From positions 3,423,147 through 3,487,146 of the forward strand of contig NZ_KI911563.1 of the NCBI RefSeq assembly GCF_000515335.1: a DNA stretch of 64,000 nucleotides. Direction: 5' to 3'. Source of the DNA: Cohnella panacarvi Gsoil 349. Lineage in GTDB: Bacteria; Bacillota; Bacilli; Paenibacillales; Paenibacillaceae. Shown in pieces: positions 1 through 14,043 of the stretch. Every line of letters starts with the position of its first letter. Position 1 is the stretch's first letter. The notes below the pieces were generated by a model. The model saw nothing but the letters and a program-made list of their open reading frames with translations. It did not search any database and was not told the origin of the DNA. The position numbers and the translations under genes are program-made.

Positions 1-1480
1 AAGAAATCGATGCGTTCGCGCGAAGAACAACGACAGCAGAATATCCCGCAAGGGAGCTCGCGGCAAAGGGTAGCGGTGAAACCGCAAGGGTATGCCGGAG
101 CGCCGAGTTCTTCGTCGGCACAAACCGACCTTTCTTCTCGCGAAGGAAAGCACGACTTGCTGGATCAAATGCTCGAGGAGGGAAATCTCCGAGAAGCCTA
201 CAAGCGAGTGAAACAAAACGGAGGAGCGCCCGGCATAGACAACGTGACGGTAGCCGAGCTACAAGCACACGTATGGGAATGCTGGGAAACCGTGAAAGCG
301 CAGCTCCAATTGGGTACGTACAGACCGATGCCAGTCAAACGGGTGGAAATCCCCAAACCCGGAGGCGGGGTGCGGCTGTTAGGTATCCCAACCGTAATGG
401 ACCGCTTGATCCAACAAGCCCTCATGCAAGTAATGACACCGATTTTCGACCCGTTATTCTCACCGAACAGCTTTGGATTCCGCCCAAGGAAACGTGCCCA
501 TGACGCAGTAAAACAAGCGCAGTCCTACATTCAAGAAGGAAATCGCTGGGTCGTAGACATAGATTTGGAGAAGTTCTTTGACAGAGTGAACCACGACATC
601 CTCATGGCAAGGGTAGCACGAAAAGTCGCGGACAAGCGTGTCTTGAAGCTGATTCGTTCCTACCTCAATGCCGGAGTCATGGTCGACGGGACAAAGCAGG
701 AGACGCTGGAAGGAACGCCGCAAGGCGGTCCGCTCAGCCCGCTTTTAGCTAACATCCTGTTGGACGATCTGGACAAAGAGTTAACGGAACGCGGCTTGAA
801 GTTTGTGCGTTATGCGGACGACTGCAACATCTTTGTCCGAAGCAAGCGTGCAGGTGAACGCGTAATGGCGTCGGTCATTCGCTTTGTAGAGGAGAGGCTC
901 AGACTAAGAGTGAATCGGGACAAGAGTGCGGTAGACCGCCCATGGAACCGCAAGTTCCTTGGATTCAGCTTTCTCAGCAACAAAGTCGCGACGATTCGAA
1001 TCGCGCCGAAGAAACTGGAACAACTAAAGGAACGCGTCAGGGAGATAACCTCGCGTACGCGAGGCGTCTCGATGGAGAAGAGGCTGCAAGAATTAAATCG
1101 CTACCTGATGGGTTGGATAGGCTACTTCCGGCTAGCATCCGTAAAGACGCACTGCGAACGACTCGACGAATGGATTCGCCGAAGACTACGCATGTGCCTA
1201 TGGAAGCAGTGGAAACTACCTAAATCCAGGCTCCGAAACTTACGTGCCCTAGGTGTACCGGAGTGGGCGGCAAGAATGATGGCAAACGCTCGCCGCGGAT
1301 GCTGGGAAATGTCCCGAAACATAAACAACGCCCTTAATCACTCCTACTGGAGTGACCAAGGGCTGTTAAGTCTGACAACTCGTTATCTTGAAACTCGTTA
1401 ACTTTTAGGAACCGCCGTATGCGGACCCGCATGTACGGTGGTGTGAGAGGTCGGGGGCTAGCCGCCCCCATCTACTCGAT
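1..1480 (+). mobile_element. Group II intron, 3' part (5' end outside window)
   Basis: A maturase ORF is followed by a typical group II domain V hairpin at about 1409-1445 (arms around CCGTATGCGG and CCGCATGTACGG) and a domain VI-like GC hairpin (GGGGGCTAGCCGCCCCC) ending in CTACTCGAT near 1480. The encoded protein has no HNH endonuclease domain, which fits the bacterial class C type; such introns often insert just after transcription terminators. The 3' boundary lies within a few bases of the stop codon of the convergent nucleotidyltransferase gene (1483). Domains I-III and the 5' splice site lie left of the window, so intactness cannot be judged. Confidence 0.85.
10..1401 (+). CDS. ltrA: Group II intron reverse transcriptase/maturase
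   Basis: The 463-residue intron-encoded protein assists splicing and copies the intron into DNA during retrohoming. The reverse transcriptase domain spans about residues 50-330, with the catalytic motif YADD at 268-271 and the block TPQGGPLSPLL just before it. The maturase (thumb/X) domain spans about 340-430. No C-terminal HNH endonuclease is present: the protein ends soon after the maturase domain, as in class C introns, which prime from replication forks instead of cutting the target. The frame is intact throughout, so the protein could be active. The true start may be a little downstream of or beyond the window edge, since only 9 bases precede this ATG. Confidence 0.93.
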   Translation: MRSREEQRQQNIPQGSSRQRVAVKPQGYAGAPSSSSAQTDLSSREGKHDLLDQMLEEGNLREAYKRVKQNGGAPGIDNVTVAELQAHVWECWETVKAQLQLGTYRPMPVKRVEIPKPGGGVRLLGIPTVMDRLIQQALMQVMTPIFDPLFSPNSFGFRPRKRAHDAVKQAQSYIQEGNRWVVDIDLEKFFDRVNHDILMARVARKVADKRVLKLIRSYLNAGVMVDGTKQETLEGTPQGGPLSPLLANILLDDLDKELTERGLKFVRYADDCNIFVRSKRAGERVMASVIRFVEERLRLRVNRDKSAVDRPWNRKFLGFSFLSNKVATIRIAPKKLEQLKERVREITSRTRGVSMEKRLQELNRYLMGWIGYFRLASVKTHCERLDEWIRRRLRMCLWKQWKLPKSRLRNLRALGVPEWAARMMANARRGCWEMSRNINNALNHSYWSDQGLLSLTTRYLETR

Positions 1481-1482
1481 TA

Positions 1483-2241
1483 TTAATTAAGGATTATAGA
1501 TCTGTTTACAACTTCATAGTCGGATAAGCTATCTATTTCATACCAACCTCTTCGAATCGGCACGGCATGAACCGGTATATCTCTGTTAATCAATTCTTGT
1601 ACCAGATCGGTCATATAAGCATTAGGGAAAGCCCTTCCCCAGCCAATCAAATCAGTTGAATCGCGGGCTTTCTCGTGCGTGGACAGTAAAAATTTGCACC
1701 CGTCTCCGGAAAATTTGAGTAGACCGATGTACTGTGCCATTACTTCGTCGGGATGGGGATTACTTTTTCCAATACTGATCAATCGATATTCCTTGTCATA
1801 GATGAGACTCTCCGCGTCTTCGAATGGATTTGCGAAACGTTCTGAGTAGTATCTTTTCCATTCCATATCGACTGCTATCGCGATATCGCGAGGACTAGAT
1901 AGTAGCGTTTCTAACACCTGATCATCATATAGGATGTCCCCATACGAAATAATAACATCGTCTCCGCCGAGCAATTGATCCCTGGCGCAAAAGAGAGAGT
2001 ATGCCATGTTCGTGGATGCATAACTTTCATTGCTTTTAACATTAAAGGAGTAGTTACTCTTGACCGATTCACCGCAATATCCGGTCACCACGGTGACGTC
2101 ATAAATTCCATACTTGTGAAACCGTGCTATTTGTCGATCGAGAAGCGTTTGACCATGCAGCTCAACCATGGCTTTAGGGCGATCTGCGGTCAGCGGTCGT
2201 AACCTCTTGCCTTGACCGGCTGCTAATATGATAGCCTTCAT
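1483..2241 (-). CDS. Nucleotidyltransferase, probable CTP:phosphoglutamine cytidylyltransferase (Cj1416-like)
   Basis: This 252-residue protein has the sugar-phosphate/choline nucleotidyltransferase fold: the N-terminal signature LAAGQGKRLRPLT with PKAM after it (residues 6-25) binds the nucleotide, and a metal-binding Asp lies in SYGDILYDD near residue 98. By sequence alone it could be a phosphocholine, aminoethylphosphonate or sugar nucleotidyltransferase. The neighbourhood decides: a PEP-synthase-like kinase, a glutamine-amidotransferase-fold hydrolase and a CysC-like kinase accompany it, the set that in Campylobacter jejuni (Cj1415-Cj1418) makes cytidine diphosphoramidate. There Cj1416, of similar length, joins CTP to phosphoglutamine. 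It is the last gene of the minus-strand operon, 12 bases after the hydrolase, with a good AGGAGG site. Fold is certain, substrate is inferred. Confidence 0.75.
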   Translation of the reverse strand: MKAIILAAGQGKRLRPLTADRPKAMVELHGQTLLDRQIARFHKYGIYDVTVVTGYCGESVKSNYSFNVKSNESYASTNMAYSLFCARDQLLGGDDVIISYGDILYDDQVLETLLSSPRDIAIAVDMEWKRYYSERFANPFEDAESLIYDKEYRLISIGKSNPHPDEVMAQYIGLLKFSGDGCKFLLSTHEKARDSTDLIGWGRAFPNAYMTDLVQELINRDIPVHAVPIRRGWYEIDSLSDYEVVNRSIILN

Positions 2242-2253
2242 GATAGGCCCTCC

Positions 2254-2913
2254 TTATTTAGGAAAACGAAGGATCGTATGAATCAATTCAATATCCAATT
2301 TCGAATACGGCTTATTGCGCTCAGGATGCCACATGACGCCCAGCATGGGGTAATCCCGATGAACGAAAGCTTCTATGGTATGATCCCCGACATGATAACC
2401 AATGGGTTGCAGACATTCGGGGAGATGACTGCCGATGCAGTAGTTGTGATAGGAATTCACGACATTGCTTTTCCACTCCATTGGATCTGCATCATTAGGG
2501 AGATTAAGTTTGATCTCATGCGAGGCTGCGACATGCCCGCTTTTTCGTAACAACTGACCGCCGAAATAGGCGTAAATAAATTGCATGCCTCGACAGACTC
2601 CCAAGACCGGTATCTGTCCAGAGCATGCAACTTCCAGCAGAGCAGCTTCTGACTCGTCTCTGATCTTACTTAATGGTGAAGAGGTTTCCGAATGAAGTTG
2701 GCCATATTCGACATTATTGCCCCCGGAGAGTACGATTAAATCCGGCTTAACGTGCTTGATCCAATCAGATACGGACTTACCCGTATTAGGAATCGGAATG
2801 ACAAGATCGAATCCGGCAGCTTTCAGGAAGCTATACCATTCATGGCTTAATGCGTCGCGAATCTCCCCATATAACGGATCCTGGATCACTCGTTGAGTTA
2901 TTACTGCGATCAT
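2254..2913 (-). CDS. Class I glutamine-amidotransferase-fold hydrolase, probable gamma-glutamyl-CDP-amidate hydrolase (Cj1417-like)
   Basis: The 219-residue protein belongs to the peptidase C26 / gamma-glutamyl hydrolase group. The nucleophile is Cys107 in GVCRGMQ, and the His-Glu pair is His196/Glu198 in MWHPER; the oxyanion region is LSGGNN near 62-67. These enzymes cleave gamma-glutamyl amide bonds. In the Campylobacter phosphoramidate pathway Cj1417, of about this size, removes glutamate from CDP-glutamine to give cytidine diphosphoramidate. Its ATG overlaps the stop of the kinase gene upstream by 4 bases (ATGA), so the two are probably translationally coupled. A PuuD-like polyamine role is the main alternative but nothing nearby supports it. 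Confidence 0.75.
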   Translation of the reverse strand: MIAVITQRVIQDPLYGEIRDALSHEWYSFLKAAGFDLVIPIPNTGKSVSDWIKHVKPDLIVLSGGNNVEYGQLHSETSSPLSKIRDESEAALLEVACSGQIPVLGVCRGMQFIYAYFGGQLLRKSGHVAASHEIKLNLPNDADPMEWKSNVVNSYHNYCIGSHLPECLQPIGYHVGDHTIEAFVHRDYPMLGVMWHPERNKPYSKLDIELIHTILRFPK

Positions 2914-5306
2914 AATGCGGCCTCACATGGACGTACTCGTTTTTCTTGACAATTCAAGTCGATATACACGCTTCTTTGAAGTTCCTTAAACAACCATTCC
3001 CCGCAACCGATCGCTGCAGGTATTCCGAACTCCGAGCAACGTACAGCCATATGCGAGGCAACCCCCCCATATTTCGTGATGAGACCGGCGATTTGACGAG
3101 AAAACAACCAATCGTATCCAGGATCAGCGTTTTCGATCATGACTATTTTTCCTTTCAGATCTAAATCGTTCGAAGCAACGGAGTGTTGGAGCAATACCGA
3201 TTCGGCTACGATTCGGCGGCTTGAGCTAAAGTTGGGATTCGACTGAATCATTCGAATGACTTCAAGGTCTTCGGTATTCATGATTAGATCGGGAACGACT
3301 AATTGAGCATGTCCCGTATAAATAAATTTTTGTTCGTCTATCAAGTATCTACACTGATCCACAAAGCTGTCCGACAACGGTTCCTGCTCCCACCGAAGCA
3401 AATGTTCAATCGGAAGGAAGGCCATCTCGTCAACGGTAAAGCCATGATACTTCCCAAATTCACCGATATATTTTAAAGCAAGGCTAATGTTTTTAGTAAA
3501 CTCGAACTTAATTTTCTCCCGCAGCATAATACTTCTAGATATGAAATCTAGCAATTTATGCACGGAAACATTAAAGCCTTCGGAAGAGAGAAGAGACTGT
3601 ATAGCACTCAACTGCTCGGCTCTGAATTGGAACGAGCGGGATTGTTGTTCCTTCCGGATCTCGGTTGCCGATGCGGAAAAGTAGATTTCTGGACGCTCGT
3701 CATATCTAGGTGCCGTAATATCATAAGTGCCCGGCCGGAGATGACCATATCTGCGGCACATCTCCTCTAAGGATAATTCCCCCTTGGAGTACGAGTGCAT
3801 ATCCATTGTATACTCACTTGCGACGGTTTCTATCGAAATTAGAAATTGATGCAGCTCATCTTCCGACAGTACGCCTGTACTGACCAGCGAGCGTAAAATT
3901 TGAGTGCCGATGAACGCGCACCGAGCTATCGAAGCAAAGGGAACCGTGCCATAAACCATACTATCCTTCAGTAATACATCGATGGCCGTGAGCAACGTCG
4001 TGGGAAGAGCATCCGCTGTTTCCCAGGCCCTACGTCTAGTTTGAAGGTAATCGACTTGTTCCAGTAAACCATTTATTAACTTATCGCTATCGTCAATCAG
4101 GTTCTGGGTCAATTGCAGAAGACAGGAACGCAGTGCATGAATTTCTTCGTTGAAGAAGCCGTGCTGCTTGAGAAGTGCTTCTACTTCAGAAAACTTGAAA
4201 TCCAAACAGGAATGGACGATAAAGAACTCTACTTTGTCATGGTAGTGAGGGTGCTCGAATAGCCTCTGTATATAATAGTTAACAAGTTTTTCCGATAATT
4301 CGGGAGATAAGCCCATAGGCAATAATGAATTGAAGCTCGACCGGACGTCTACATAAGGCCGGCCCGCAATTTGCACCATTAAACCATAGGATTCGGGAGT
4401 TTGATACCCTAGTACAGAGCGACCCTTCCGCCATGCCGAATCCATTATGACATGATTATAAAGCGAGTATGCCAACGGTTTGGGACGAGTGCCGATAATC
4501 TCCGCGGGATTCCAATCCGGCATCTGTCCTAAAATCGTGTGTTCTCCGAACATCCCTGGTTTGCGCTGCCTTCTATATTCAGCGAACGCCTGGATCTCTG
4601 AAATTTGTTTTTTTGTTTTTTGATCCATCAAGCCATGATGCCGTATTACATTCGATACAAGAGGGCGAACTTGAAAGATAAAGACTTCATCGTTCGAATT
4701 CAATGCGAATTCAATATCAAGCGAATCGCAGTTGCAAACAGACTCGAGCTCACGTACGGCTTCAATTAAGTTACTCCACCATTGGTTCTTGGGGGAGGCA
4801 TGCTTGTACACGAGAACATGCTTCTGAGTGTTGTAAGCCCCGCTCGTTACAGAATCCGTTAATGATGAAACATCGTCGTAATTAATGACATAATAGGGGG
4901 CGAACGTCTCCAATGTTCGAGTGAACAGAACGCCGCTGCACTTTACATCAGGCAACATGGGCTGTACGAGAATTTCAAAATCCTGATAATCCGTTGTAAA
5001 TTCTTTATAGGAAGCAACTACCGCATTAATGGCAAGTTTTATGTCTGATGGGCGAGGTTCGACGTTTAATATGCTTTCGAATTGCCCAGCCAGAGATGAT
5101 TCGAAAGAATCTTCGCATAAAGAACTGCTTCTTATCGCCAGCAACGAGACTTCAAATTTTGCGATGACATGTTCAATCCAGTAGGAGTGGTTCTGCTCCC
5201 ACTGGCTAACAGTAAAGTATACGGCTTGTAATATATTTGATTTATTGATTATCGGCCGAAGCTGAACTAAATTTTGCGCTTTTGTTTTGAACGTAAAAGA
5301 GGTCAT
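2910..5306 (-). CDS. PEP-synthase-like kinase, probable L-glutamine kinase (Cj1418-like)
   Basis: This 798-residue protein has the pyruvate phosphate dikinase plan: an N-terminal ATP-grasp domain (about 1-215, with AIRSSSLCEDS and FIFQVRPLV) and a C-terminal swivelling phosphohistidine domain whose catalytic His is about residue 752 in GGVASHMAV. The middle 500 residues are unlike PEP synthase and there is no PEP/pyruvate barrel, so it phosphorylates something else. In Campylobacter jejuni Cj1418, of similar size, phosphorylates the amide nitrogen of L-glutamine, the first step to phosphoramidate. The clustered genes for the following steps make that the best reading. The start is supported by GGGAGG nine bases upstream. 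Its AT-rich codon use differs from the housekeeping genes to the right. Confidence 0.75.
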   Translation of the reverse strand: MTSFTFKTKAQNLVQLRPIINKSNILQAVYFTVSQWEQNHSYWIEHVIAKFEVSLLAIRSSSLCEDSFESSLAGQFESILNVEPRPSDIKLAINAVVASYKEFTTDYQDFEILVQPMLPDVKCSGVLFTRTLETFAPYYVINYDDVSSLTDSVTSGAYNTQKHVLVYKHASPKNQWWSNLIEAVRELESVCNCDSLDIEFALNSNDEVFIFQVRPLVSNVIRHHGLMDQKTKKQISEIQAFAEYRRQRKPGMFGEHTILGQMPDWNPAEIIGTRPKPLAYSLYNHVIMDSAWRKGRSVLGYQTPESYGLMVQIAGRPYVDVRSSFNSLLPMGLSPELSEKLVNYYIQRLFEHPHYHDKVEFFIVHSCLDFKFSEVEALLKQHGFFNEEIHALRSCLLQLTQNLIDDSDKLINGLLEQVDYLQTRRRAWETADALPTTLLTAIDVLLKDSMVYGTVPFASIARCAFIGTQILRSLVSTGVLSEDELHQFLISIETVASEYTMDMHSYSKGELSLEEMCRRYGHLRPGTYDITAPRYDERPEIYFSASATEIRKEQQSRSFQFRAEQLSAIQSLLSSEGFNVSVHKLLDFISRSIMLREKIKFEFTKNISLALKYIGEFGKYHGFTVDEMAFLPIEHLLRWEQEPLSDSFVDQCRYLIDEQKFIYTGHAQLVVPDLIMNTEDLEVIRMIQSNPNFSSSRRIVAESVLLQHSVASNDLDLKGKIVMIENADPGYDWLFSRQIAGLITKYGGVASHMAVRCSEFGIPAAIGCGEWLFKELQRSVYIDLNCQEKRVRPCEAAL

Positions 5307-5325
5307 GGCAAGTTGCCTCCCTATC

Positions 5326-6054
5326 TCATTGCGTCGATAATATTGCGAAATGTTTCAGGAGGGGATGAATGATGTAGAAAGTTTCTCCTGCGGTGGCACT
5401 TTGCGTACTAAACTCAAAATGGCCAGTGTCTACAAATTCCTTCAAAACCTCTACAAGTAATGAAGCACGAATGAACGGATCAAGTATATAGTCTAAATTA
5501 GGCAAAGGGTGCTTTAGTTCAAACCATTTGGTTTTAAGCACAGGTCCGCAATCGATTTTTTCTTCCAAAAAAATGGCGGAGGCTCCGATACGACCCTCAT
5601 TAAGCAGACTATAATATACCGTTGTACTGCCTCGGTATTCAGGTACGACTCCTGGATGAATATGAAGGAAACGTTTGCCGAGTTCAAGAACAGGCTTCTT
5701 CAATATTTGTCCACCGAAACCGGAATAAACGATATATGGAGATGGAGCTTCAGCTAATGCCTTCTTCGATTCTTCCGAATTGACGGAATCGGTTTCAATG
5801 AGAGTATACGGTATCCCGTATTCATTCAAAGTAAATAAGACCGGCTCTTCAAGCTGAAAGTATTCGATCGACTTTTGGTTAAGTGATTCACAACGGGTTT
5901 CGTAGGAGATAAACTCTTGGCGCAAACTTTCGGGAGAAGGGCTCATGATTAACGCATATGAAGGAATGAGACCGTTTCGCGCCATTAGTTGCAAGTAAGC
6001 TTTCGTTCTAGCGGTATTCGCTCCAAGCAATATAAAATCGTTTAGTATCTTCAT
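5326..6054 (-). CDS. Formyltransferase-fold protein of unknown substrate
   Basis: The 242-residue protein resembles the N-terminal formyltransferase domain of methionyl-tRNA and GAR formyltransferases. The active-site segment LHIHPGVVPEYRGS is at about residues 130-143 and the Asp-containing EKIDCGPV at about 162-169. In the family the first is usually N-x-H; here the Asn is replaced by His (H-I-H), while the His and Asp remain. The usual C-terminal subdomain is absent. The enzyme might formylate or hydroxymethylate an amine or phosphoramide, or may have a new chemistry. Its ATG overlaps the stop of the 183-residue gene by 4 bases, and it lies 19 bases before the glutamine kinase gene, so it is part of the operon. 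No matching gene in the Campylobacter pathway is known to me. Confidence 0.7.
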   Translation of the reverse strand: MKILNDFILLGANTARTKAYLQLMARNGLIPSYALIMSPSPESLRQEFISYETRCESLNQKSIEYFQLEEPVLFTLNEYGIPYTLIETDSVNSEESKKALAEAPSPYIVYSGFGGQILKKPVLELGKRFLHIHPGVVPEYRGSTTVYYSLLNEGRIGASAIFLEEKIDCGPVLKTKWFELKHPLPNLDYILDPFIRASLLVEVLKEFVDTGHFEFSTQSATAGETFYIIHPLLKHFAILSTQ

Positions 6055-6602
6055 ACGCCTAATCCCTTTGCGGTTTGGAGTTGCATAACGGTTTGCTTCT
6101 CAATAGCGAGAACGATCAACATGATTTCGATTTCTCTATTCGAAAGCTCGGCCTCGAATGAGAGGATCGTGTCGACTAGTTTTAACAACGTGTTTAGGTA
6201 TTTTAATCCTCCACCATCATGTAACTTCAATGCTATGGCAGATGCTAACCTAACATATGGGCCGGAGTCTTTATAATCGCTTGTATCCAAGGGTCTATAG
6301 TCGATGTCGTACGCGCTGTACACTCGTTTGCGGATTTCAAAGCTGTGGATCCATTTGTCCAACACGTCTGAATTGTCGTTAGTAACATCATATCCGATTT
6401 CGAAGAGAAATGGATTGACGAGAGCGACATTGGGCTCATCTGTAGAGGAAGCCTCTACTTTGTCTTGGAAGCGTCTGAACGCTAGATCACGAGATTCCTT
6501 ATATGCCTGGATAAAAGGGAAACCATGGAACGTCGAGTACATATAAAATTGTTTGTTTTCCCGATTATCTTCCGTAACGTAAGGATAAAGGTGCTCATAC
6601 AT
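6051..6602 (-). CDS. Uncharacterised 183-residue protein of the phosphoramidate cluster
   Basis: I do not recognise this protein. It is acidic, soluble, without signal peptide or membrane segment, rich in aromatic residues in the first half (start MYEHLYPYV) and predicted largely helical in the second half. No Cys or metal-binding cluster is apparent. It overlaps the CysC-like kinase gene by 8 bases and the formyltransferase gene by 4, so it is surely expressed with them. Such tight coupling between a kinase and a formyltransferase-fold protein suggests a partner subunit or an enzyme of a tailoring step, but that is only inference. Confidence 0.7.
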   Translation of the reverse strand: MYEHLYPYVTEDNRENKQFYMYSTFHGFPFIQAYKESRDLAFRRFQDKVEASSTDEPNVALVNPFLFEIGYDVTNDNSDVLDKWIHSFEIRKRVYSAYDIDYRPLDTSDYKDSGPYVRLASAIALKLHDGGGLKYLNTLLKLVDTILSFEAELSNREIEIMLIVLAIEKQTVMQLQTAKGLGV

Positions 6603-7128
6603 ATTTTTTGTTCCTCAACCACTGCCATAATTGTTCCATGCATTCATCTGGGGTATTTTTCGAAGTATGTAATACCACATCCGGAGAAGAGGGGACTTCG
6701 AATATTTCATCCACGCCGATAACGTGCTTCATTTCTCCGCGTAAAGCTTTCTTATACAGTCCTTTGGTATCTCTATCAATACATACCTCAAGGGAGCATT
6801 CGACGTATACTTCTACGTAATCCTCTATTTCTTGACGATAATTGTTGCGCATTTCCTGATAAGGAGATATGGCGGCGATTACAACGGAAACGCCATTCCG
6901 ATTGAGCATTTTTGCAGTGAATCGAAGAATTTTGCTTACCTTCAGCCGTTCTTCCCTCGAATAACCGAAAAGATGACCGATTTCATCCCGGACGACATCT
7001 CCGTCCAGAACTTCGACCCGATGGCCATTCATGTTCAACTGCTCTGCAACGGCTTGAGCCGTAGTACTTTTCCCAGCACCGCTAAGTCCTGTCAACAACA
7101 TCGTAAATGCTCTACTCAATGGGGCCAC
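6595..7128 (-). CDS. CysC-like kinase, probable cytidine diphosphoramidate kinase (Cj1415-like)
   Basis: This 177-residue protein is of the adenylyl-sulfate kinase family: P-loop GLSGAGKST at 14-22, LDGDVVRDE at about 41-49 and the lid region with DTKGLYKKA. True APS kinases sit beside sulfate adenylyltransferase genes; none is here. Instead the other three enzymes of the Campylobacter phosphoramidate pathway are present, where the CysC homologue Cj1415 phosphorylates the 3' hydroxyl of cytidine diphosphoramidate. The listed start is GTG directly after an AAGAGG run, which is too close; a TTG three codons on (7119) has better spacing from GAGGTGG and may be the real start. The gene follows the 607-residue gene by 3 bases. 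Confidence 0.75.
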   Translation of the reverse strand: MAPLSRAFTMLLTGLSGAGKSTTAQAVAEQLNMNGHRVEVLDGDVVRDEIGHLFGYSREERLKVSKILRFTAKMLNRNGVSVVIAAISPYQEMRNNYRQEIEDYVEVYVECSLEVCIDRDTKGLYKKALRGEMKHVIGVDEIFEVPSSPDVVLHTSKNTPDECMEQLWQWLRNKKYV

Positions 7129-7131
7129 CTC

Positions 7132-8955
7132 TTATTTTTTTCTTGGTTTTAAATAGCTAAAATCGGCTGTTATTTTGCTGCGTAAATCCTGCAGAATATG
7201 CTGATGTTGAGGATCACAAACAAGATTAGTCGTTTCATCGGGCAATTGAAACAACAGTTCATCGCTGTTCTCGAACAGGACGTATTTGTGAGTATGGTTT
7301 CGGACCATTTTGAATGCGTTTATCCACACACCCAAGTTCTTTACGACAACCGGATAAAGGAGCCAACCCGTATTATAAATCGTATCTCTTTCGGTAATTA
7401 CTTCCGCTGTGAATAGGGAATCGTCTACTTTGCCGCTTTCCAATAAACTAGTCAACATTGAATCAAACTCAGTCATGCTTAATAGTTCATCATGGGTCTC
7501 TGGAATTAAATCTTTGTGGTTAACGATAAATGGAACATGAATATATTCATCCTTGCATTTCATCAGATGACCTGTGGGTTCGTCTCCGCCAATCGCGCTC
7601 CCGTGATCGCTACACACGATTACCATTGAATTGTCTGGAAGCTTGGAGCGAATATCTTTGATTTTTCCATCTATGAAAGATAAGACTTCTTTATACTGGG
7701 AGAGGCTTTCTCGATGCAGCTCGCCATTGCCCTTCAAGTAATCCACTGGAGTGTACCTGGTATTTATCGTCCCTTTGTGTTGTGCGCAAATAAAGGGGAA
7801 ATGCGTTTCCATTACATGGATAAGATGAAATTGAGGAGCGTCAGAGTCGTGTAGATGACACATCACATTCCACCAACTGATAGAAATAACGGATTGTTTC
7901 CCCAACTTCAAATGATTTAAGCGTCTAACGTTTTCAAAGACGGGAGCAGCATATTGAAAAAGCAGGTAATCCCTTTTTTCCAACCACTGAAATATGGAAG
8001 ATTTCGAACCGTCAACGTGTCCGGTGAAAAACTCATCTCTCGCCAGATCCTGTCCATTGAACATTCCCAGGTAACTTCTCTTGGTATAAGTTGAAGGACT
8101 ATATGCACTGCGAAAGGAAATAGATCGGGTTGCCAGTTCATACAGAGAAGGGCACATTGCTAAATCCCGCTGCCGCATCCCATCAAAAACCAATAAGACG
8201 ATGTCTTTAGTTGCGCGTTGACGGATCGCTTCATTCGCATTTATCAACAATTGCTCTATCTCATTGTTTAATTGAGCGACACGGTTTGCATCCGAGAATC
8301 CTTTTTCGATATAACGGTGGGAGAAAGTTGCAAACTGATCCAATTCTTTGATGTCTAGTAAATAGGATAAAAGCATTCTGTATAAAGTTTCCACAATTCC
8401 GTCATCTTCTTCGAGTTCAATCCGAGCACGAAGCAGATGAATGTCTAAACAGGGAATATAGATTTCTTCCGAATAGAATGGAATCACTTCGCCACTCGAT
8501 ATGATTCCAGTATAGATGTCATAAAAATCAACGATTTTTACCATTGGGTACTGTGACTTTAATGTCGCTTTTATTTCGTCTCGATGACGTATTGTTGATA
8601 CAATGACCGTGGTTATATTTTCGCTGTCTATGGCTTCCGGTTGTTTTACGGGAATGCTCATTAATTCCGTTCCATGCTTTGAAGAGTCTGAATCTACGAT
8701 GAAGGATATCGGAACTTTACCACCAAGAAACTCCACAAGATTAACGGTATGTACTCCGGCACCCCAAATCGCTACCTTATCGGTTGATTGGATACGGCTC
8801 CCCGTCGTTCTAATATGCCATCTCATGAAAGATGGTACATCGGTAAATAATTCATACTTAGTTCGGATTTGATCGAATTGTTCCTGTAAGGAGAAAGGTT
8901 GGGGATTCTGTAACATTTCATCTTGAACCAATATCAACTTTCCTCTCGTTAGCAT
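7132..8955 (-). CDS. Rossmann-like domain fused to alkaline-phosphatase-superfamily (sulfatase-type) domain; candidate phosphoramidate transferase
   Basis: The 607-residue first gene of the operon has two parts. Residues about 58-150 look like a nucleotide-binding Rossmann domain (VAIWGAGVHTV, then FIVDSD). Residues about 250-560 are a sulfatase/phosphoglycerol-transferase-type domain: Asp258 in LLVFDGM, a Ser/Thr nucleophile region PSTYTKRS at 287-294, His384 in METHF, Asp450-His451 in CSDHGS and His463 in GHLMK are the expected metal and catalytic positions. There is no signal peptide or membrane segment, unlike LTA synthase, so it should act in the cytosol. Transferring or removing a phosphoryl-type group is likely; with the pathway next to it, phosphoramidate transfer to a glycan precursor is my hypothesis. 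The candidate promoter puts the transcript start near this ATG, so a TTG at 8931 behind GAGAGGAAAG may be the true start. Confidence 0.7.
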   Translation of the reverse strand: MLTRGKLILVQDEMLQNPQPFSLQEQFDQIRTKYELFTDVPSFMRWHIRTTGSRIQSTDKVAIWGAGVHTVNLVEFLGGKVPISFIVDSDSSKHGTELMSIPVKQPEAIDSENITTVIVSTIRHRDEIKATLKSQYPMVKIVDFYDIYTGIISSGEVIPFYSEEIYIPCLDIHLLRARIELEEDDGIVETLYRMLLSYLLDIKELDQFATFSHRYIEKGFSDANRVAQLNNEIEQLLINANEAIRQRATKDIVLLVFDGMRQRDLAMCPSLYELATRSISFRSAYSPSTYTKRSYLGMFNGQDLARDEFFTGHVDGSKSSIFQWLEKRDYLLFQYAAPVFENVRRLNHLKLGKQSVISISWWNVMCHLHDSDAPQFHLIHVMETHFPFICAQHKGTINTRYTPVDYLKGNGELHRESLSQYKEVLSFIDGKIKDIRSKLPDNSMVIVCSDHGSAIGGDEPTGHLMKCKDEYIHVPFIVNHKDLIPETHDELLSMTEFDSMLTSLLESGKVDDSLFTAEVITERDTIYNTGWLLYPVVVKNLGVWINAFKMVRNHTHKYVLFENSDELLFQLPDETTNLVCDPQHQHILQDLRSKITADFSYLKPRKK

Positions 8956-9288: not shown

Positions 9289-9486
9289 ATGCAAGGAAAA
9301 GTTAAATGGTTTAACGCAGAGAAGGGTTATGGCTTCATCGAAACAGAGCAAGGCGGCGATGTATTCGTTCACTTCTCCGCTATTCAAATGGACGGTTACA
9401 AGGCTCTTGAAGAAGGCCAAAGCGTAGAGTTCGACATCGTTCAAGGCGCTCGCGGTCCTCAAGCTGCTAACGTTACCAAAGTATAA
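9289..9486 (+). CDS. cspA: Cold shock protein
   Basis: This 65-residue single CSD protein has both RNA-binding motifs: KGYGFI at 12-17 (RNP1) and VFVHF at 25-29 (RNP2). Such proteins bind single-stranded RNA and DNA and act as RNA chaperones at low temperature and in general growth. The length is typical of Bacillus CspB-type proteins. The gene is single, with its own promoter upstream and a terminator downstream, and GC content rises here compared with the island to the left, marking the return to core chromosome. Confidence 0.96.
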
Positions 9487-9588: not shown

Positions 9589-9633
9589 TATTCTAGAGGA
9601 TAGACTCACATGCGAGCAAAGGGGAACGCAATT

Positions 9634-10695
9634 ATGATCTCGTTAGCAATGATCGTCAAGAACGAAGAGAAATACTTGGACAGATGCCTCAAAAGCGCCG
9701 CGCATATGGTAGATGAGATCATCGTCGTGGATACGGGCTCGACGGATCGTACCGTAGAGATCGCAGAGCAATACGATGCGAAATTATATCGCTTCGAATG
9801 GATCGACGACTTCGCCGCTGCCCGCAACTATTCGTTAGAGCATGTAACCGGAGACTGGGTGCTCGTACTCGATGCCGATCAGTATTTCCAAGAGGATTTC
9901 TCCGAATCGATTAAGCAATTCACGAATTCGAATGCGAAACGCGCCGGCCTAATCGAAATCATTTCAAAATACGAGCAGAATGGCCAGACGCTCCACTCTA
10001 CCGATTATATGGCTCGGCTGTTTCCTCGCGGCGCGAGATTCGAAGGACGCATTCATGAACAATTGACGCCGCTGATGCCTACGGTCGTAACCGGATTGAA
10101 ATTGATGCACGACGGTTATTTTCAGACGGACAAGGGAACTCGCAACATCCCGTTACTGCTGAAAGCTTTAGAAGAAGAACCCGATGACGCTTATTTGAAT
10201 TTCCAACTCGGCAAACAATACCGCGGAGCGGACGAATATAACCTTGCGCAGCATTATACGGAGAAGGCCTATGGGTTATTGCAAGGCTCCAATCCTCCTT
10301 TCGCTTTAGAGACGATCATCGAATTACTCGAAGTGCTTACGGTTAACAAACAATACGAAGCGGCGCTCGAGCTCGCAAGCAACGAAGTCGAGTGGCTGGA
10401 TAAATCCCCCGACTTCGCCTTCTCCGTCGCGCAGTTCCTGCTGGAATACGCCATCGACGCGCAAGATTTCTCGGTCGTCGGCAATATCGAGAACAGCTAT
10501 CTGAAATGTTTGGAGCTTGGCCGAGCGGGAGCGAAAGAGATCGTTATCGGCGCTTCTACCTATCTAGCCGCCTATAATCTTGCCGTGTTCTACGAGTCGA
10601 TCGGGAACGATGCCAATGCTAAGGAGTACTATGCGTTGTCGGACTCCTACGGCTACGAGCCTGCGAAAGAAAGACTGCAAAAATACACGTCCTAA
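9634..10695 (+). CDS. Family 2 glycosyltransferase with TPR-like C-terminal part
   Basis: The protein (353 residues from this start) begins MISLAMIVKNEEK, the start of many SunS/family 2 glycosyltransferases. VDTGSTDRT near residue 35 and the metal-binding DAD in LVLDADQYF near residue 85 mark a GT-A domain over about 1-170. The remaining half is helical with tetratricopeptide-like pairs (for example DAYLNFQLGKQYR). It transfers a sugar from a nucleotide donor to an unknown acceptor in the cytosol. An upstream ATG at 9610 is in frame, but AAAGGGG at 9618-9624 is placed nine bases before 9634, which I prefer. It stands alone between the cspA terminator and hpf. Confidence 0.88.
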   Translation: MISLAMIVKNEEKYLDRCLKSAAHMVDEIIVVDTGSTDRTVEIAEQYDAKLYRFEWIDDFAAARNYSLEHVTGDWVLVLDADQYFQEDFSESIKQFTNSNAKRAGLIEIISKYEQNGQTLHSTDYMARLFPRGARFEGRIHEQLTPLMPTVVTGLKLMHDGYFQTDKGTRNIPLLLKALEEEPDDAYLNFQLGKQYRGADEYNLAQHYTEKAYGLLQGSNPPFALETIIELLEVLTVNKQYEAALELASNEVEWLDKSPDFAFSVAQFLLEYAIDAQDFSVVGNIENSYLKCLELGRAGAKEIVIGASTYLAAYNLAVFYESIGNDANAKEYYALSDSYGYEPAKERLQKYTS

Positions 10696-10805: not shown

Positions 10806-11369
10806 ATGAAATACAACATTCGTGGTCAGCGTATGGAAGTTACCGATGCTCTTCGTGATTATGTCGAGAAGAAGCTAAGTAGGCTGGAACGGTACTTTGA
10901 AGCCCCTCCCCAATCTGATGTTAACGTAACCCTAAGCGTAACGAAGGGCCAGCAGGCCGTCGAGGTTACGATTCCGCTGCCGGGATTCTACCTCCGCGCG
11001 GAAGAGAAACGCGAGGACATGTATGCTTCGATTGACTACGTAGTGGACAAACTCGAACGTCAGATCCGCAAGCATAAGACGAAGATCAATCGCAACTTCC
11101 GGCATCCGGACTCGGCCAGAGCGCTCTTCAAGGAAGATTTCGGCGGCGGACAGAGCACTGTGTCTACGCTTGATCGCGACGAAGAAGACGATCTGGAGCT
11201 CGTGCGGACGAAGAAGTTCAATATGAAGCCGATGAACGTCGAAGAAGCGATTCTTCAGATGGACCTGGTGGGCCATAACTTCTTCGTATTCACCAACGAT
11301 GTGACGAAGGAGATCAGCGTCGTGTACCGTCGCCATGACGGTAAGTACGGCTTGATCGAAGCCGAATAA
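10806..11369 (+). CDS. hpf: Ribosome hibernation promoting factor, long form
   Basis: The 187-residue protein has the N-terminal RNA-binding S30AE domain (about 1-105, start MKYNIRGQRMEVTDALRDY) and the C-terminal dimerisation domain (about 125-185, FNMKPMNVEEAI and FVFTNDVTKEISVVYRRHDG). Long HPF both inactivates 70S ribosomes and pairs them into 100S dimers through the C-terminal domain. The length is the normal one for Bacillota (YvyD). It lies directly upstream of secA, the order usual in Bacilli, but a terminator separates them. Confidence 0.96.
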   Translation: MKYNIRGQRMEVTDALRDYVEKKLSRLERYFEAPPQSDVNVTLSVTKGQQAVEVTIPLPGFYLRAEEKREDMYASIDYVVDKLERQIRKHKTKINRNFRHPDSARALFKEDFGGGQSTVSTLDRDEEDDLELVRTKKFNMKPMNVEEAILQMDLVGHNFFVFTNDVTKEISVVYRRHDGKYGLIEAE

Positions 11370-11387
11370 CATAACGCATCTATTCAA

Positions 11388-11416
11388 CCCGGTCGCCGAG
11401 AAGGCGATCGGGTTTT
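11388..11416 (+). terminator. Terminator after hpf
   Basis: A 10-bp stem with one wobble pair (CCCGGTCGCC / GGCGATCGGG) and a 5-base loop is followed by TTTT. Confidence 0.85.
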
Positions 11417-11456
11417 CGCTATAAGAAGGGAAATAGCCCCTTTAACCGCCCTTTCC

Positions 11457-11485
11457 TTGCTCCATTTTCGCCAAACTGTTAAAAT
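11457..11485 (+). promoter_or_regulatory. Candidate promoter of secA
   Basis: TTGCTC (11457-11462) and TAAAAT (11480-11485) are 17 bases apart. It is placed between the hpf terminator and the AGGAGAGAGG ribosome site of secA. Confidence 0.5.
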
Positions 11486-11529
11486 GAGAAGATGTTGTAT
11501 TACCCGCAGGAGAGAGGGGTATTTCCCAT

Positions 11530-14043
11530 ATGCTCGGATTAGTCAAAAAAATATTCGGCGACGCCAACGAACGCGAAGTGAAGCGGCTGCTTAAAATCGT
11601 GGACCAGGTCAACGCACTGGAATCGACGGTTTCCGCCCTTAGCGACGAGGGCTTGCGCGCCAAGACGGATGAGTTCCGCGCACGCTTAGAGAAAGGCGAG
11701 ACGCTCGACGACATCTTGCCGGAAGCTTTCGCGGTCGTACGCGAAGCGGGCCAACGCACGCTGAACAAACGCCATTACGACGTTCAACTGGTCGGCGGCA
11801 TGGTGTTGCACAGCGGCAAAATCGCCGAGATGAGAACCGGCGAAGGCAAGACGCTGGTCGGTACGCTGGCCGTCTACCTGAACGCGCTCGAAGGCAAAGG
11901 CGTTCACGTCGTAACGGTCAACGACTATCTCGCGCAGCGCGATAGTGCGGAAATGGGACAAGTCTATACATTCCTGGGCATGACCGTCGGTTGCAACCTT
12001 CATGGGCTGTCCCACGAAGAGAAGCAGCAGGCGTATGCTTGCGATATTACGTACGGCACGAACAACGAGTTCGGGTTCGATTACCTGCGCGATAATATGG
12101 TGCTCTACAAGGAGCAGATGGTACAACGTCCGCTCCATTACGCGATCATCGACGAAGTCGACTCCATTCTCGTCGACGAAGCGCGTACGCCGCTTATCAT
12201 CTCGGGTCAAGCGCAGAAGTCGACGGAGCTGTACTATGCCGCGGATCGTCTGGTCAGCAAATTGACACCGGACGAAGATTTCACCGTCGATATTAAGATG
12301 CGCAGCGTAGCCTTGACCGAACAAGGCGTAACGAAGGTCGAGCGCGCGTTTAACATCGACAACCTGTACGCTCACGAGCACGTAACTTTGAACCACCACG
12401 TTAACCAAGCGCTTCGCGCCCGCAATATCATGAAGCGCGACGTCGATTACGTCGTGCAAGAGGAAGAAGTCGTTATCGTCGACGAATTTACCGGCCGTCT
12501 TATGGCTGGCAGACGGTATAGCGACGGTCTTCACCAAGCGATCGAAGCGAAGGAGCAGCTCAAAGTCCAGAACGAGAGCATGACGCTCGCTACGATAACG
12601 TTCCAGAACTACTTCCGGATGTACCGCAAGCTGGCCGGCATGACCGGTACGGCGAAAACCGAGGAAGAAGAATTCAAGCGGATTTACGGGCTTGACGTTA
12701 TTCAAGTGCCGACGAACCGTCCGAATATCCGTCTGGACTTGCCGGACATCGTCTATAAATCCGAGAACGGCAAGTACAAATGGGTCGTCGAAGAGATCGT
12801 GAGACGCCATGCGACGGGACAACCGGTTCTCGTCGGTACGGTGTCGATCGAGAACTCCGAGCGCATCTCGGAAATGCTGAAGAAGAAAGGCGTCAAGCAC
12901 CAAGTGCTGAACGCCAAGTACCATGCGGAAGAAGCCGCGATCATCTCGCAAGCGGGACAACGCGGGACCGTAACGATCGCCACGAACATGGCGGGACGCG
13001 GTACCGACATCATCCTCGGAGAAGGCGTAGCGGATTTGGGCGGTTTGCACATCATGGGCACGGAGCGCCATGAATCGCGGCGGATCGATAACCAGCTTCG
13101 CGGTCGCGCGGGCCGTCAGGGCGACCCGGGTTCTTCGCAGTTCTATCTGTCGATGCAAGACGAATTGATGCGCCGGTTCGGCGCGGACAATATCATGGGA
13201 ATGATGGAGCGCCTTGGCTTCGACGAGGATTCTCCGATCGAGAGCCGTCTCATCACGCGCGCGGTCGAGTCCGCCCAGAAGCGGGTCGAAGGCAGCAACT
13301 TCGATGCCCGTCGGATCGTTCTGCAATACGATGACGTGATCAACCTGCAACGGGAGAAAATTTACGGAGATCGCCGCGAAATTCTCCATGCCGAGAACAT
13401 CCGCGATATCGTCGAACCGATGGTTCGTTCCGTAGTCAACCGTTCCGTGGATAACCATTGTTCGGACAACGACGTTCCTGAGGATTGGGATTTGGAAGGC
13501 TTGGTCTCTTATGCTCATACCCACTACCTGCCAGAGGGCCGTCTGACCAAAGACGATCTATGGGGCAAGGAGAAGGAAGAGCTCGTCGAGAATCTCATGG
13601 GACTCGTGGAGAATCTCTACAACGAACGCGAAGAGACGATCGGCGCCGAGACGATGCGCGAATTCGAGAAGGTCGTCGTGCTGCGCGCCGTGGACAGCAA
13701 GTGGATGGACCACATCGACGCGATGGATCACTTGCGTCAAGGCATCCATCTCCGTGCTTACGGCGGCAACGATCCGCTGCGCGAATATCAATTCGAAGGA
13801 CACAACATGTTCCTCGGCATGATCGAGCGGATCGAAGAAGAGGTTACGCTCTACATCATGAAGGCGCAAGTCGAGAAGAAACCGCAGCGCGAAGCGGTCG
13901 CGGAAGGCCAAGCGGTCGATCCGAAAGCCGAAGAAGGGCCGAAGAGACCGGTCAAGAGAGACGAAGCGCAGATCGGACGCAACGATCCGTGCCCATGCGG
14001 AAGCGGCAAGAAATACAAAATGTGCCACGGCCGCATAAACTAA
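11530..14043 (+). CDS. secA: Protein translocase motor subunit SecA
   Basis: This 837-residue ATPase drives preproteins through SecYEG at the membrane. The Walker A motif GEGKT is at 104-108, the DEVDS Walker B segment near 210 and the helicase motif [13 protein letters not shown] near 520. The C-terminal tail ends in the zinc-binding [14 protein letters not shown] that contacts ribosomes and chaperones. Length and domain order are normal for Bacillota SecA1. It is followed after 47 bases by prfB, as in Bacillus subtilis. Confidence 0.98.

Follow-up and report, generated by a model that had tools for sequence, protein, structure and literature searches.

In Campylobacter jejuni, Cj1415-Cj1418 are required for the formation of 3'-phosphorylated cytidine diphosphate (CDP)-phosphoramidate, and the modification is lost from its two sugars when Cj1421 and Cj1422 are deleted, according to the available text of PMC11800397. 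In the portions of the literature available, no explanation was found for the transfer of phosphoramidate from donor to sugars. The glutamine kinase is described as specific to C. jejuni in the accessible part of a review (PMC9561416). A Borg cluster of predicted O-methyl phosphoramidate genes has been reported in archaeal extrachromosomal elements, by structure prediction (PMC12660748, available text), so finding such genes outside Campylobacter has a precedent. Here, a 64,000-base stretch of the genome of Cohnella panacarvi Gsoil 349 was analysed (the window; bases 3423147-3487146 of 4.77 Mb, one contig). We consider, at a probability of about 70%, that a seven-gene operon in the window is a phosphoramidate cassette that decorates a flagellin glycan. 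This assignment draws on observed gene families, conserved residues, linkage and place in the genome, from which every reaction proposed below is inferred.

The compact operon occupies positions 8955 to 1483 of the minus strand (Table 1), with neighbouring genes separated by gaps of 3, 19 and 12 bases or overlapping by 8, 4 and 4 bases. All seven open reading frames (ORFs) have the strand, coordinates and lengths given in a preliminary description of this DNA. That description had built a donor pathway from four of the genes, namely those for K798, H219, N252 and the adenosine 5'-phosphosulfate (APS)-kinase-like protein C177 (numbers are lengths in amino acids), and its fold classes for them proved correct in family scans. 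The other three genes, for X183, F242 and AP607, look to be part of the system too. Relatives of the proteins in other loci are denoted below by their letters.

Table 1. Features of the operon and its surroundings. Positions refer to the window, except those marked L002, which refer to the last 20 kb before it.
Feature	Position	Strand	Description
N252, 252 aa	1483-2241	-	Nucleotidyltransferase; proposed CTP:phosphoglutamine cytidylyltransferase
H219, 219 aa	2254-2913	-	Gamma-glutamyl-CDP-amidate hydrolase-like
K798, 798 aa	2910-5306	-	Glutamine-kinase family; PPDK_N and phosphoenolpyruvate (PEP)-utilising mobile domain
F242, 242 aa	5326-6054	-	Formyltransferase fold, H-x-H...D instead of N-x-H...D
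X183, 183 aa	6051-6602	-	All-helical, no known family; F242 partner (suggested)
C177, 177 aa	6595-7128	-	CysC/APS-kinase-like; proposed cytidine diphosphoramidate 3'-kinase
AP607, 607 aa	7132-8955	-	N-terminal Rossmann-like part and alkaline-phosphatase (AP)/sulfatase superfamily domain; candidate phosphoramidate transferase
Group II intron, 3' part, with reverse transcriptase (10-1401)	1-1485	+	TIGR04416, 436.8 bits; RF00029 at 1410-1480
Cold-shock-protein-like gene	9289-9486	+	Upstream of operon, opposite strand; named by recognition
Family 2 glycosyltransferase with tetratricopeptide repeat (TPR)-like tail	9610-10695	+	PF00535, 91.1 bits
hpf (10806-11369), secA (11530-14043), presumed	10806-14043	+	Right border of the island; homologues in L059
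Flagellin gene, presumed	L002 327-1130		20 kb before the window
flaG, fliD, fliS, presumed	L002 2970-5925		20 kb before the window
Glycosyltransferase-like protein and further glycan-type genes	L002		
LicD, and cytidylyltransferase-like/oxidoreductase fusion	L002 10044-12263		LicD PF04991, 130 bits; ends 9.1 and 7.7 kb before the window
TagF-like protein	L002 18054-19544		No Pfam match alone

K798 matched NF004508 at 897.8 bits (cut-off 501), a model that is itself titled 'hypothetical protein'; PEP synthase models scored at most 55.5 bits. The histidine that the preliminary description had placed near residue 752 lies in the stretch GGVASHM and was invariant in 13/13 diverse homologues. With an E threshold of 0.001, the homologue search scored 6457 proteins, which may include more distant PEP-utilising proteins. 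Among the 120 homologues listed, eight bear the name 'glutamine kinase', from one source, and 12 are fused to an NTP-transferase domain (PF12804); in P0043, K is fused to a hydrolase domain. For H219, the best family was NF045546, gamma-glutamyl-CDP-amidate hydrolase, at 130.7 bits, which is under the cut-off of 250 (next family, 43.3 bits). The same family was best for the hydrolases of ten other loci (10/10), all likewise under the cut-off. Cys107, His196 and Glu198, singled out in the preliminary description, are present and were invariant in 10/10 aligned sequences, including that of the window. N252 matched PF12804 at 58 bits and is intact to its C terminus, although a group II intron adjoins its stop codon. 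A role as glutamine kinase is thus supported for K798, with probable roles as gamma-glutamyl-CDP-amidate hydrolase and cytidylyltransferase for H219 and N252, respectively.

Linkage was analysed in 85 loci, comprising the best 80 of 571 K relatives from one scan of named genomes and five neighbourhoods from the host's order. At a presence threshold of E <1e-5, H was found beside K in 80 loci, N in 77, C in 50, F in 31 and X in 27; loci cut at contig ends were included, so true absences are fewer. The grouping therefore goes beyond chance. H lay on the same strand as K in 79 of the 80 loci, with a median gap of -1. All six genes occurred in 24 loci, and the order C-X-F-K-H-N recurred in Cohnella, Pseudomonas, Aeromonas and Alteromonas. 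X and F were within 100 bases of each other in 26/26 loci with both (a single ORF in L067 and L077), as were C and X in 23/25 (a single ORF in L036). The position of C-X-F varied (ahead of K, following N, between K and H, or on the opposite strand), which suggests that it moves as a block. The best 80 of the 571 K relatives, whose hosts include archaea, Pseudomonas, Planctomycetota and Clostridia, all show 36% identity or more, and most have a conserved gene neighbourhood, in contrast to the view of a C. jejuni-specific enzyme.

Since the loci had been chosen by K, searches for K, F and X were made separately in 199 Pseudomonas species. K was found in 19 and F in six; X was found in the same six, and in each of these K is on the same contig, at most about 3.5 kb away. 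Without the centre genome, co-occurrence of X and F was 5/5 (hypergeometric 3.6e-6, uncorrected for kinship). X183 and F242 thus travel with the cassette, apparently as partners. As a small control for the gene grouping, a search with the seven proteins in the 40 kb that precede the window gave one weak match, to the 607-residue query (E 3.3e-5). Within the host's order, K was present at E 1e-60 in 6/392 genomes, that of the host counted. K relatives also occur on 14 plasmid records (H1-H14), e.g. of Azospirillum, Vibrio, Cupriavidus and Agrobacterium, and four of these were typed as conjugative. In Clostridium guangxiense (L049 9995-12322), K stands in a locus in which neither H nor N was found, with thiamine-synthesis-like genes upstream.

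The three additional proteins were characterised further. X183 has no Pfam or NCBIfam match; 181 homologues were found at E 0.001 with its alignment, and the 120 listed carry no Pfam domain. Its model is all-helical, with a predicted local distance difference test (pLDDT) score of 85.5, and a fold search with that model gave no convincing match. F242 scored 35.1 bits against PF00551 (cut-off 26.1). The canonical formyltransferase triad is N-x-H...D; this is absent from F242, and H131-x-H133...D168 is found instead in 28/28 sequences. F242 also has an extra end motif of the HPLLKH type. The canonical N-x-H...D persists in two ORFs of weak similarity, in L030 and L037. F242 was accordingly not classed as an ordinary formyltransferase. 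The predicted structure of AP607 belongs to the AP superfamily, with conserved residues of the metal-site type, and relatives were found in 2/85 loci: in L093 the relative adjoins C, and in L059 it precedes C by about 7 kb. None of the seven operon proteins matched a methyltransferase family above cut-off (AP607 scored 23.2 bits against PF08484, cut-off 23.5); methyltransferase genes occur near several other cassettes. The label of an O-methyl phosphoramidate-type pathway, as first applied to this operon, is therefore too narrow.

The operon lies inside a flagellin glycosylation island, with glycan genes within a flagellar gene locus. The genes bounding this island, which we take from their sequences to be flagellin, flaG, fliD, fliS, hpf and secA, are listed in Table 1. 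Flagellar genes near K were also found in L044, L067, L068, L070 and L080, and hpf-secA in L059. The operon's target is likely a flagellin glycan; the preliminary description had spoken of a donor for capsule sugars and of phosphoramidate on the cell surface, and the setting favours flagellin glycan over capsule. Geobacillus has flagellin glycosylation islands as well, there between flaA2 and flaG (PMC5109656, available text). In L070 (4013-13630, Defluviitaleaceae), flagellin-like, TPR glycosyltransferase-like and TagF-like ORFs directly precede K-H-N. Aligned together, the TagF-like proteins of the island and of L070 (the latter PF04464, 30.7 bits) matched a PF04464-type cluster with an hhalign probability of 96.9.

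For K, N, H and C, the proposed steps follow those of the Campylobacter pathway. N252 would couple the glutamine-kinase product to CTP, H219 would remove glutamate to give cytidine diphosphoramidate, and C177 would phosphorylate the 3' hydroxyl of this product. We further propose that X183 works together with F242, either on the 3'-phosphorylated donor or on what is made from it, and that AP607 may be the acceptor-specific enzyme that moves phosphoramidate to a sugar of the flagellar glycan.

A possible reason for the APS-kinase-like step came from sulfotransferase-like genes. K was flanked by 5 kb on either side in 57 loci; in 16 of these, the family occurred within 6 kb of K, as detected with a model seeded from the same loci and widened once. 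All 16 were among the 37 loci with C, and none among the 20 without (2.2e-4, uncorrected for kinship). PF13469 was above cut-off in L016, L032, L041, L044, L062 and L089, and was not matched in L071, L079, L012 and L092. We also searched 26 cassette-C genomes (the host's own plus 25 from the 50 loci with C) for ATP sulfurylase (PF01747) and CysD. Neither was found in eight of them at E 1e-20, so C need not make 3'-phosphoadenosine 5'-phosphosulfate (PAPS) there. Absence is weak evidence for six of these, which are assemblies from metagenomes or uncultured organisms; the other two, Fusibacter bizertensis and Haloferax elongans, are named isolates. Seven of the eight carry a sulfotransferase-like gene. 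These data suggest that the 3'-phosphate makes cytidine diphosphoramidate a PAPS-like donor, readable by PAPS-type enzymes; serving as such a handle would explain the APS-kinase-like step. With the sulfotransferase model, neither the window nor the preceding 40 kb (L002 and L003) gave a match at E up to 1e-3, so for this locus the idea holds by analogy only, and the candidate transferase is AP607. As a tentative generalisation, which we would put at somewhat worse than even odds, 3'-phosphorylated cytidine diphosphoramidate might be a widespread PAPS look-alike. An APS-kinase-like enzyme would add the 3'-phosphate handle; sulfotransferase-fold enzymes (or, in this operon, AP607 with the X-F pair) would read it and transfer phosphoramidate to flagellar or other surface sugars in Gram-positives, Proteobacteria and archaea, and C-X-F would be a new enzyme block.

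Several observations weigh against a phosphoramidate cassette, and those on C177 bear on a different division of the operon, in which K-H-N make cytidine diphosphoramidate and C177 is an ordinary APS kinase giving PAPS for a sulfation that involves AP607. C177 scored 157.7 bits against PF01583 and 180 bits against TIGR00455, above the cut-off of 138.7. In a midpoint-rooted tree of 47 of the 50 cassette C proteins (three longer ORFs were excluded), the clade of the window, L059, L093 and L115 joined the APS kinases with a support of 0.998. The other side of the tree was made up of 43 of the 47, and L022 and L045 also fell on the APS-kinase side. The host genome has CysD, away from the operon, and a second, canonical APS kinase (C1:2292539), so APS could be the substrate of C177. 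The best evidence for this division is L115, where, in an island comparable to that of the window, a close relative of C177 (253 bits) directly follows an AP-superfamily protein. No other operon protein was found in its 20 kb; the genome has ATP sulfurylase, gave no NF045546 match at E 1e-8, and is not among the six genomes of the order listed with K, in a search that presumably covered it. However, C, X, F, K, H and N occur together across many phyla, and the AP proteins of the window and L115 gave no significant BLASTP match (best E 0.066). No ATP sulfurylase or sulfotransferase family was found among the seven operon proteins, and, as above, no sulfotransferase-like gene nearby. The substrate-site motif also differs. 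The phenylalanine of [FL]TG stacks on the adenine of APS. This motif was present in all 20 distinct canonical APS kinases (FTG in 19, LTG in one), whereas C177 has VIG at the site, V[IV]G is found in 4/4 of its clade, and many cassette C proteins have NVVG. We thus consider a separate sulfation unit unlikely. With the tree pointing toward APS kinases and the changed motif away from them, C177 appears to be the weakest link of the donor pathway: the pathway first proposed is supported for the glutamine kinase, hydrolase and cytidylyltransferase, on family score, residues, linkage and fusions, and is unsettled for the 177-residue kinase. In L117 (8082-9235), from a genome of the host's genus, two divergent APS-kinase-like ORFs occur in tandem, both without the [FL]TG stretch.

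N252 raises a comparable question. Of the relatives that the preliminary description had named as evidence against its pathway (APS kinase, PEP synthase and phosphocholine cytidylyltransferase), none was closest to K798 or H219. C177 groups with APS kinases, and the nearest solved structure to N252 was 1jyk, a CTP:phosphocholine cytidylyltransferase; sequence alone does not distinguish the substrate. The statement that no choline pathway genes accompany the operon did not hold for the island, in which a LicD-family gene and a cytidylyltransferase-like/oxidoreductase fusion are found, outside the window. A LicC-like N252 might then work with this LicD in a phosphocholine-type or other CDP-linked phosphodiester pathway, with K and H acting on a different amide; CDP-threonine is the proposed donor for a Clostridioides difficile flagellin glycan in the available text of PMC10714395. 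We regard this as improbable, since no choline-kinase family was found among the seven operon proteins, N accompanies K in 77/85 loci, NTP-transferase domains are fused to K, and the family of H219 is named for CDP-amidate cleavage. More improbable still is that the donor enters a small molecule instead of a surface glycan. This would be in keeping with L089-L091, where K, H, N and C relatives stand beside what are presumably carrier-protein and ketosynthase genes, and where L089 has a protein combining AMP-ligase and sulfotransferase. The island of the window, however, holds flagellar and glycosyltransferase genes, and no carrier or ligase gene was recognised among the ORFs near the operon, part of which were scanned against the library. 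Further points against the preferred reading of a cassette for flagellin phosphoramidate are the sub-threshold score of H219; the finding of a flagellar gene in only 5/85 loci, within the DNA examined; and AP607, which could equally be a hydrolase, since its predicted fold does not separate the two activities. In addition, the K, H and N relatives of L059 (Cohnella rhizosphaerae) are broken into several ORFs, and this cassette may be decayed or misread.

Mobile elements were found around the island genes. A second copy of the group II intron lies at L002 5980-7869, in direct orientation and 99.7% identical over 1891 bp. The two copies flank the block from LicD to the TagF-like gene, and the one in the window reaches as far as the N252 stop codon. 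Transposase-like ORFs lie between the flagellin gene and flaG (L002 1239-2824). Within the host's family, clusters that resemble natural-product loci and include phosphoramidate genes occur at L089 (2799-11651), L090 (6768-15633) and L091 (4400-13273).

The available literature yielded no mention of C-X-F as a block, of a flagellin setting, or of sulfotransferase-like genes being linked to C. The X-F pair, the C-tied sulfotransferase-like genes and AP607, as recurrent neighbours, offer specific candidates for in vitro work, and flagellin, as the likely target, is a protein amenable to purification and mass measurement. Like the APS kinase CysC, C177 scores above the cut-off of TIGR00455, but it differs in its replaced [FL]TG and in having a second, canonical copy in its genome. 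F242 shares the fold of PF00551 formyltransferases, but differs in H-x-H...D, the HPLLKH-type end motif and its neighbour X183. Phosphoramidate genes outside Campylobacter are a feature in common with the Borg cluster, for which no X-F pair or flagellin setting is described in the available text (PMC12660748). The C. difficile type A flagellin glycan (CD0240-CD0244) likewise has a Gram-positive flagellin sugar with a phosphate-linked group and a proposed CDP-activated donor; its group is phospho-threonine instead of phosphoramidate, and the available text (PMC10714395) names neither a glutamine kinase nor a hydrolase. The likeness to Cj1415-Cj1418 lies in four enzyme classes in one operon and a hydrolase whose best family is NF045546. 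It is drawn at the level of enzyme classes and families; the best 80 of 571 K relatives included no C. jejuni locus. Unlike the C. jejuni system, the operon lies in a flagellin island and not a capsule locus, has X183, F242 and AP607 in addition, has no methyltransferase, and has a C177 from an APS-kinase-like clade. A Gram-positive bacterium appears to carry the enzymes for a rare nitrogen-phosphorus tag, as known on Campylobacter capsules, in a region that decorates flagella, and the extra genes suggest unstudied steps.

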